Positions 34,752-36,525 of a DNA stretch of 40,023 nt are shown piece by piece (the first letter of the stretch is position 1; every line of letters starts with the position of its first letter). The position numbers and the translations under genes are program-made. The stretch is taken from positions 1-40,023 of the IMG/VR virus record IMGVR_UViG_3300032296_001257. One strand, 5' to 3'. This DNA comes from a virus. The notes below the pieces were generated by a model, which saw nothing but the letters and a program-made list of their open reading frames with translations, did not search any database and was not told the origin of the DNA.

Positions 34752-34784
34752 GGGCTTCCGCGTCGGTATGACCGTTCCAGCCCC
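34752..34784 (+). repeat. 33-bp leader repeat, copy 1
   Basis: Begins GGGCTTCCGCGTCGGTATGA and differs from copy 2 (35598-35630) at 3 of 33 positions. It contains a small hairpin CGGT-ATG-ACCG. It lies upstream of the first of the two paralogous rightward genes, so it is probably a promoter-linked or leader regulatory element. Confidence 0.7.
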
Positions 34785-34853
34785 CTATATGTCCTCGAAA
34801 TAAAAAGACAAAATAATTTCGCCCTGCGCTGGATTCTGTGGGACAATGATGGG

Positions 34854-34880
34854 GACATGGTGGCATTGGGTCATCATGTC
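34854..34880. repeat. Repeated palindrome, copy E
   Basis: GACATGGTGGC (34854-34864), spacer ATTGG, GTCATCATGTC (34870-34880). The left arm is diverged but all changes keep G-U pairs in RNA. It lies just upstream of the ribosome-binding site of the rightward gene at 34903. Confidence 0.7.
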
Positions 34881-34902
34881 TTTTCAACCACTAGGAGTTT
34901 CT

Positions 34903-35541
34903 ATGAAAACTACACCAGCACTAAACCCCATCGCGTCCGCGATCTCGGGGTCATCATCACCTGCTACTAGCGCAGGACGTCTTTTCGCCCAATCTGAAAC
35001 GGACGCCAGCACAGCCCTTGAGATGAGCGCACGCGCCCTTGGCGATGCCCCGTCCTATGATGTCTATACCGCGCACCGCGTGGAGTGGGTCAACGGGTAC
35101 TGTGAGGTCAAGCCACAGGCCAAGGGTCAGAGCGCAGACAAGGCTTTCAATCGGTTCAAAGACCGCCTAGTTGATGCCTTTGCTATCACGATACCCAAGG
35201 CCGTCAGCGCCAGCGCCACTAAAAAGGCCGAGGAGCGCGCTAAAAAGGCCGAGGCCATCGCCGAGAAGTACAAGGCCGTCTCAGACGATGAGTTGCACCT
35301 GATGGTCACTAGGGCATATGAACAGGCATCGCGGACGCCGTTGGCCTCTGATGCCCTGATAAAGGAGTTGCGTAAGGTACTCAAAGACCGCACTAAGACC
35401 GAGACGGACGCGGTCAAGGCCGAGTTGAAAACAGCCCGAGACGTTGTAATCAAGGCCGTCAAAGAATGTTCAAATATTGAGAAGTTGACGCTGGCCGCGG
35501 AAGTTTTATCGTCAGAAAATGACGTATCAGTATCCGAGTAG
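34903..35541 (+). CDS. Paralogous protein 1 of a tandem pair, unknown function
   Basis: A 212-residue protein; ATG 34903 has AGGAG (34893-34897), which decides it over the ATG at 34846. After a Ser/Ala-rich N-terminus there is ALGDAPSYDVYTAHRVEWVN, then ADKAFNRFKDRLVDAF, a Lys/Ala/Glu-rich helix, IKELRKVLKDRTK and KECSNIEKLTLAAEVLS. The same blocks appear in the same order in the next gene. It forms its own transcription unit with leader repeat, palindrome E and terminator. Composition suggests an abundant helical, possibly nucleic-acid-associated protein. I do not recognise a family. Its G/C content looks higher than the early genes. Confidence 0.7.
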   Translation: MKTTPALNPIASAISGSSSPATSAGRLFAQSETDASTALEMSARALGDAPSYDVYTAHRVEWVNGYCEVKPQAKGQSADKAFNRFKDRLVDAFAITIPKAVSASATKKAEERAKKAEAIAEKYKAVSDDELHLMVTRAYEQASRTPLASDALIKELRKVLKDRTKTETDAVKAELKTARDVVIKAVKECSNIEKLTLAAEVLSSENDVSVSE

Positions 35542-35554
35542 CAACCGGCCGGTT

Positions 35555-35583
35555 AAGCCCCGCAGAACATCGCGGGGTTTTTT
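35555..35583 (+). terminator. Intrinsic terminator after paralogue 1
   Basis: Stem CCCCGC (35558-35563) and GCGGGG (35572-35577), 8-base loop, then six T (35578-35583). Flanking A/T pairs lengthen the stem. Confidence 0.88.
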
Positions 35584-35597
35584 ATCGCGCGAAAAAA

Positions 35598-35630
35598 GGG
35601 CTTCCACGTCGGTATGACCGTTCCGGTCCC
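35598..35630 (+). repeat. 33-bp leader repeat, copy 2
   Basis: Matches copy 1 at 30 of 33 positions and lies right after the terminator of paralogue 1, upstream of paralogue 2. A short AAAATAATTT follows both copies (34810-34819 and 35679-35688), perhaps a shared -10-like element. Confidence 0.7.
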
Positions 35631-35761
35631 TCGATTGTCCCTAATTAACTGGTCGACGGCAGCTAGCTTCGGGTCTTAAAAATAATTTTAGGAAAATGTC
35701 GCATTCTCTAGCTTTTTATGGGATACTTTCAATTGACGCATTGAGATTGGCTCAACGTGTC

Positions 35762-35780
35762 CCCGGTTATCCGGGTTTTT
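35762..35780 (+). terminator. Possible attenuator in the leader of paralogue 2
   Basis: CCCGG (35762-35766), loop TTAT, CCGGG (35771-35775) and five T (35776-35780), ending 23 bases before the start of paralogue 2. A short stem, so partial termination at most. Its place in a leader rather than after a gene suggests attenuation. Confidence 0.5.
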
Positions 35781-35803
35781 CAATCATCAAAAGGAAAACG
35801 AAA

Positions 35804-36475
35804 ATGGAAAATAATCCAACCCCAGTAGCAGAGCAAATTCAAGCTCTAACGAATGAGCAGCAGCAGACCGCATTTAATTGCGGAAAGGTAATGGCCATTA
35901 ACGACCTCGAGGTAATCGAGCAGGCCAAGACCTATGCTCAAATGCTAGGTACCGATCCTAGCTATTCTCAATGGGAAAATGGCCGGGTTCAATGGATAGC
36001 TGGCCACGTCGAGGGGAACCCTGATCTTACTGGTAACGCGCATGACAAGGCGTGGGAGGTTTTCTCGATCAAGCTCAATCAATTGTTCGGGTTGACTAAA
36101 CCTGAGAGCAAGAGTCCGGCAGCAGCAAAGAAAAGGGCGGAGAGAGCAGCTAACGAACAGGCCCTACTAAAGCAGCACGAGAATACATCTCCCGATCAGT
36201 TACGGCAGCAGCTTGAAAAAGCTCACTTGGCCCTTGCAAAAAACCCTGAGAATAAAGCAGCAGAGAAGCTCAGCAAGGATCTCAAGAAGGTCTTAAAGGT
36301 TAAAACGGCAGAGCAGAGTAAAGCTCGCATGGAGCTACTGGCCGGGCTGCGTGAGCAGATTAGAGAAGCTGCAAAGAAATGCACCGAAGAGGAAACCTTG
36401 CAAGCTGCCCTCGATATCCTGAGCTTGGCAGCAGACTTCGAGTACGCAGAAGAAGTCGAAGCAAACCAAAGCTAA
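35804..36475 (+). CDS. Paralogous protein 2 of a tandem pair, unknown function
   Basis: A 223-residue protein. ATG 35804 has AAAGGA about 8 bases upstream; the in-frame ATG at 35696 would read through the attenuator and lacks a site. The blocks MLGTDPSYSQWENGRVQWIA, HDKAWEVFSIKLNQLF, KDLKKVLKVKT and AKKCTEEETLQAALDILS align in order with paralogue 1. It is Gln/Ala/Lys-rich and mainly helical. It has its own leader and terminator. The proteins are far diverged, so the duplication is old or the genes were acquired separately. Function unknown. Confidence 0.7.
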   Translation: MENNPTPVAEQIQALTNEQQQTAFNCGKVMAINDLEVIEQAKTYAQMLGTDPSYSQWENGRVQWIAGHVEGNPDLTGNAHDKAWEVFSIKLNQLFGLTKPESKSPAAAKKRAERAANEQALLKQHENTSPDQLRQQLEKAHLALAKNPENKAAEKLSKDLKKVLKVKTAEQSKARMELLAGLREQIREAAKKCTEEETLQAALDILSLAADFEYAEEVEANQS

Positions 36476-36493
36476 CCCGAAGCTCTCACGTCG

Positions 36494-36525
36494 AACCCCG
36501 GAGTAGTATTATCCGGGGTTTTTTT
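36494..36525 (+). terminator. Intrinsic terminator after paralogue 2
   Basis: Perfect 9-bp stem AACCCCGGA (36494-36502) and TCCGGGGTT (36512-36520) followed by a T-run to 36525. Confidence 0.9.

Follow-up and report, generated by a model that had tools for sequence, protein, structure and literature searches.

The global plasmid regulator KorB combines dispersed palindromic operators with autoregulation, while conserved inverted repeats are characteristic of the phiC31 repressor and dispersed operators of the C1 regulator of phage P1. In mycobacteriophage L5 and cluster A, related phages differ in the whole set of stoperators at once, and the operators described here behave likewise. The L5/cluster A immunity repressor uses more than 20 stoperators, which are 13 bp long, asymmetric and oriented with transcription, and the L5 repressor binds as a monomer that carries an N-terminal HTH and, in addition, a Stoperator domain (PMC9283540).

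The locus analysed here is similar to L5, where a single regulator has many sites across the phage genome, a few of them at promoters and the majority in transcribed DNA (PMC9283540): we found nine sites, two at promoter starts and seven in the early unit. The L5 sites are short, asymmetric and oriented with transcription, whereas those found here are 27-bp palindromes, numbering 5–10 per genome and often accompanied by two paralogous proteins (designated P1 and P2); no tyrosine integrase was found (PF00589, 12 records, control genomes positive). Unlike the HTH-containing L5 repressor, the P1/P2 family is all-helical with no recognised HTH: Pfam and NCBIfam revealed neither an HTH nor a Stoperator domain in it, and fold searches gave no clear match. 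Many operators per phage regulator across early regions are also typical of the phiC31 repressor and phage P1 C1, but P1 and P2 match no Pfam, PHROGs or NCBIfam family above chance and therefore match neither of these two regulators. With KorB the locus shares the dispersed palindromes and the predicted autoregulation, although no ParB-like domain was found by Pfam in 49 members of the P1/P2 family, a search that a very distant relative could escape.

The window, i.e., the whole stretch of DNA analysed, is a virus record of 40,023 bases, and its large terminase is nearest (55% identity) to those of Pelagibacter phage HTVC027P, phage 023Pt_psg01 and freshwater phage DSL-LC04. The early operon runs leftward (about 16–34.3 kb) and the packaging genes rightward (from 36.9 kb), with an AT-rich region between them. 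GAACAAT/ATTGTTC repeats are numerous in this region (34430–34745), which also has a 46-bp inverted repeat, and it may be the origin, since the GC skew is lowest there. To its right, leader, promoter, P1 and terminator are followed by leader, promoter, P2 and terminator, forming two single-gene units (Table 1). Searches of the named phage collection with DNA and protein gave no matches for the cassette region or P2, and no family gene was found near the terminase of the named isolates DSL-LC04, HTVC027P and MinM2.

Several other features of the window deserve mention. Genes for MoxR-like AAA, VWA (DUF2201) and weak DUF3150-like proteins lie close together on the minus strand (26543–30484), on which early proteins matching P22 NinX and DUF6878 are also encoded (31800–32117 and 32717–33265), while the plus strand encodes a 2485-aa protein (5240–12697) with a match to Large polyvalent protein associated domain 39. 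The non-coding DNA that precedes the small terminase gene (36731–36833), perhaps a packaging site, is 95% identical in relative L009 and 83–88% identical in several others, and blocks within it look exchanged among relatives.

Table 1. Features of the paralogous cassettes and of the early operon; mismatches are counted against the palindrome consensus.
Feature	Position	Strand	Remark
Leader copy 1, core CTTCCGCGTCGGTATGACCGTTCC	34755..34778	+	P1 -10 box lies about 65 bp downstream
Putative -10-like box of P1, GACAAT	34842..34847	+	6–7 nt before the operator
Predicted P1 operator, GACATGGTGGCATTGGGTCATCATGTC	34854..34880	+	at the expected transcription start
P1, paralogue 1, 212 aa	34903..35541	+	all-helical
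Intrinsic terminator of P1	35555..35583	+	fold -16.6 kcal/mol
Leader copy 2, core CTTCCACGTCGGTATGACCGTTCC	35601..35624	+	directly 3' of the P1 terminator
Putative -10-like box of P2, GATACT	35722..35727	+	6–7 nt before the operator
Predicted P2 operator, GACGCATTGAGATTGGCTCAACGTGTC	35735..35761	+	3 mismatches
P2, paralogue 2, 223 aa	35804..36475	+	all-helical
Intrinsic terminator of P2	36493..36525	+	fold -18.0 kcal/mol
Divergent early operon promoter, TTGACA-17-GATAAT	34345..34373	-	11/12 consensus bases
Distal operator, near the divergent early operon start	34264..34290	-	0 mismatches; 55 nt after the -10 of that operon
Distal operator	33466..33492	-	0 mismatches
Distal operator	32380..32406	-	1 mismatch
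Distal operator, between genes	30515..30541	-	0 mismatches; precedes the MoxR-like AAA gene
Distal operator, within the VWA (DUF2201) gene	28521..28547	-	1 mismatch
Weak distal operator, within the DUF3150-like gene	26627..26653	-	3 mismatches
Distal operator, intergenic	25596..25622	-	0 mismatches; perfect palindrome

A sequence-only reading of this DNA had proposed duplicated leader–gene–terminator cassettes with diverged paralogues, and the present analysis bears this out. The leader copies (34752–34784 and 35598–35630) match at 30 of 33 positions (0 expected in shuffles), both terminators fold well, and the proteins, previously thought to share four blocks, proved to be homologous from end to end, with 62 of 211 residues identical (29%, E 6e-19). 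The leaders are indeed better conserved than the coding DNA, which is 43% identical between the two genes. All three short strings reported to recur in both units do so, but only AAAATAATTT (34810 and 35679) occupies equivalent places, while TGGTCGACGGCAGC (35650 and 36531) and AACCGGCCGG (35543 and 36547) are located at non-equivalent ones. Unrelated folds would have spoken against paralogy; AlphaFold predicts the same helix order in P2 (pLDDT 90) and P1 (pLDDT 86). In the tree of ten genomes, the first and the second copies form two clades with a support of 99 each, so the duplication appears to be old, and on this phylogeny P1 and P2 derive from a single event with no exchange since. No row stood out when both models were compared with PDB and viral structure models. 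Judging from sequence and predicted structure, P1/P2 appears to be a new, all-helical family of phage proteins that matches no known family.

The conserved palindrome at both genes had been overlooked in that reading. It was at first modelled as a hairpin of the two 5' regions, and the model then found further copies in the early region. The 27-bp pattern GACA-N3-TGAC-N5-GTCA-N3-TGTC has nine sites in the window at no more than three mismatches, compared with 0.16 expected by chance; the leftward early region accounts for seven of them and the P1 and P2 genes for one each, which leaves none in the remainder. Relatives have the same layout, with 5–10 sites per record, and several of them also carry an operator within the VWA gene, while the reversed control pattern has no sites in them.

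The position of the palindrome depends on its context. At P1 and P2 it begins 6–7 nt past the -10 box, and in leader-type cassettes generally 6–9 nt after it, so that the operator would cover the transcription start, as expected for autoregulation. A -10 match 6–9 nt before the operator occurs at 39% of the family genes' own operators, 2% of the distal ones and 7% of random positions; the distal sites are without a -10 box and lie within transcribed DNA.

The inner tetrad of the palindrome is genome-specific, nearly all sites of one genome agreeing with each other, and at least seven types occur. The window and the majority of its relatives have TGAC, three records have TTAC, a few have GGAC, TAGG or TGAG, and single-gene relatives have CCGC or CTAG (the type of each genome was set by script from its commonest tetrad). 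At P2, the operator has TGAG in place of TGAC both in the window and in several relatives, and P1 and P2 may differ in sites or strengths. Since separate sites change in concert, including one inside the VWA coding sequence, the tetrads point to a reader acting in trans.

Closely related genomes bear on the identity of this reader. In L007 and L008, the early DNA is 96% identical and the AAA, VWA and terminase proteins 97–99%, whereas the P1/P2-family proteins share only 37% identity and the early operators are CTAG in the former and CCGC in the latter; at the VWA site and the site near the gene for a 317-aa protein, the operator is an island of change within near-identical flanks. Similarly, L180 and L172 have backbones that are 88–94% identical and family genes that cannot be aligned, and the five early operators of L180 are CTAG. 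In both pairs, the early operators have gone from CCGC to CTAG along with a replacement of the family protein. In quick trees, the CTAG rows form one clade of the family protein (arising once) but are found in three places of the terminase tree (7 versus 9 changes). Within the roughly 10 kb that can be compared in the switching pairs, the contigs being short, no gene shared by all these genomes, apart from that of the family protein, is seen to change with the operators, and from this joint switching we infer that the family protein is the operator binder. The L179 record, like the TGAG sites of P2, weighs against this reading: it is mismatched, combining a CTAG family gene and its own operator (1–1340) with CCGC early operators (1340–7587) in a stretch that shares 99.95% identity with L172, and so represents either a recent recombination or an assembly chimera.

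We therefore favour, with a probability of about 0.7, the reading that P1 and P2 represent a new family of autoregulated, DNA-binding and stoperator-like regulators of the early operon, their binding and repression being deduced from these patterns. Each protein would be made from its own sigma-70-like promoter, and since the operator occupies +1 to about +27 of the transcript start, each gene probably limits its own expression. Further copies of this operator are dispersed over the transcribed early operon beyond the predicted origin, and the protein on these distal sites, acting as a putative roadblock, would most likely block or attenuate elongation and thereby switch early transcription off, as with stoperators. 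Since no integrase was found in the 12 records, the family is no less likely to time the lytic cycle than to act in lysogeny.

One can also suppose that the operators are bound by a different phage protein, whose regulon includes the family protein as no more than a linked target. The family has no recognised DNA-binding domain, and since the contigs are short and the small early genes beside the family gene also differ in the switching pairs, a linked gene could be the binder; the CTAG genomes L178 and L180, for example, share an extra first early gene, although this gene is not universal. The DNA-binding-like candidates of the window are an HTH protein (15832–16083), a winged-helix-like protein (19610–19813) and a ribbon-helix-helix-like protein of 60 aa (27399–27578, minus strand; present in 5 of 12 records). 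In the last of these, the predicted strand RIGVSL becomes R[IV]TINL exactly in two TTAC genomes, but the protein is missing in the other seven records, the 65-kb one included. The recognition helix of the HTH protein (VSRMT[VI]YKWF) is identical in TGAC and TTAC genomes, and the switching stretch of L007 and L180 contains the gene of neither protein. We have rejected these two as the regulator and consider a different reader unlikely as a whole.

A KorB- or ParB-type role, in which the palindromes dispersed around the origin would not only regulate but also organise or partition the DNA, would agree with the clustering of the sites in the early half, beside the putative origin at the GC-skew minimum, and with the location of most of them away from promoters. 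It is nevertheless improbable: Pfam recognises no ParB-like domain in the family, and plain autoregulation fits the operator that each family gene has at +1.

Finally, the palindrome could be an RNA hairpin of the transcripts, which the P1/P2-family protein binds or which is processed. This was first suggested by the 5' UTRs of the family genes, where an 11-bp stem capped by an AUNGG-like loop gives a good fold, changes on both sides are observed at all 11 pairs, and the spacers pair slightly above chance (0.568 versus 0.466; 8/500). However, the A3 sites were chosen partly for pairing, so the 5' UTR covariation leans toward a hairpin and is to be read as palindrome plus relatedness, not as proof of RNA. 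At 129 distal sites, the N3 spacers pair no more than by chance (0.424 versus 0.432), the innermost mismatch takes the form of C.A and not G.U on the transcribed strand, and G.U pairs are almost absent from the fixed tetrads; for these reasons the palindrome is read as a DNA element. An Rfam search of the window matched no family. With the distal sites favouring DNA, we regard the structured RNA as very improbable and retain the family of DNA-binding regulators as our preferred reading.

The leader represents the other shared element of the cassettes. Its core is near-invariant across 38 copies, while the flanks are not conserved, and 10 of 11 long records have exactly two copies, about 790–860 bp apart. 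Scanning IMG/VR for CGTYGGWATGACCGTTC gave 39 stretches, 31 of which (two truncated) are leaders of the P1/P2 family; the other eight look like chance occurrences, seven being inside long reading frames of unrelated phages. The extended leader CTNCCNCGTYGGNATGACCGTTC is found in 32 stretches on 30 contigs and is absent from all of 84,980 prokaryote species genomes. Whether the leader always precedes a gene of this family had been posed as a check, and the outcome is positive: such a gene follows in 29 of the 30 contigs, and the remaining piece stops 60 bases past the leader. This specificity supports the earlier idea of a shared regulator. The suggested recombination through the leaders fares less evenly: the two leaders within one genome are more similar than expected (0.85 versus 0.77; 0/5000 permutations), but P1 and P2 show no exchange since their old duplication.

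The leader is unchanged across genomes with TGAC, TTAC, GGAC or TAGG operators, and because it does not follow the operator type, it is probably a separate element, read by something other than the reader of the operator. The HTH protein was rejected for this role, as it also occurs in related phages where the leader was not found, and a general late promoter was rejected because the leader has only two copies per record, located only before the P1/P2 family. With regard to a promoter of a phage RNA polymerase, the PF00940 search gave no match, and neither did its controls; a virion RNA polymerase within the 2485-aa protein was dismissed, as this protein has no relative among PDB sequences.

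In its broadest form, for which the odds fall a little short of even, our proposal is that apparently non-integrating phages use a new class of all-helical repressors, which control the early operon by way of dispersed palindromic roadblocks, with two specialised paralogues and a second conserved factor acting via the leader. A swap of the protein together with conversion of every operator would then create new immunity-like specificity groups among near-identical phages. For a family of aquatic-phage proteins that no library names, these data suggest a likely function, and the genome-specific tetrads predict which family protein should bind which site. The switching pairs represent natural experiments in which regulator and binding sites changed together in otherwise near-identical genomes, so that the rewiring of an operator set by a phage becomes directly testable.
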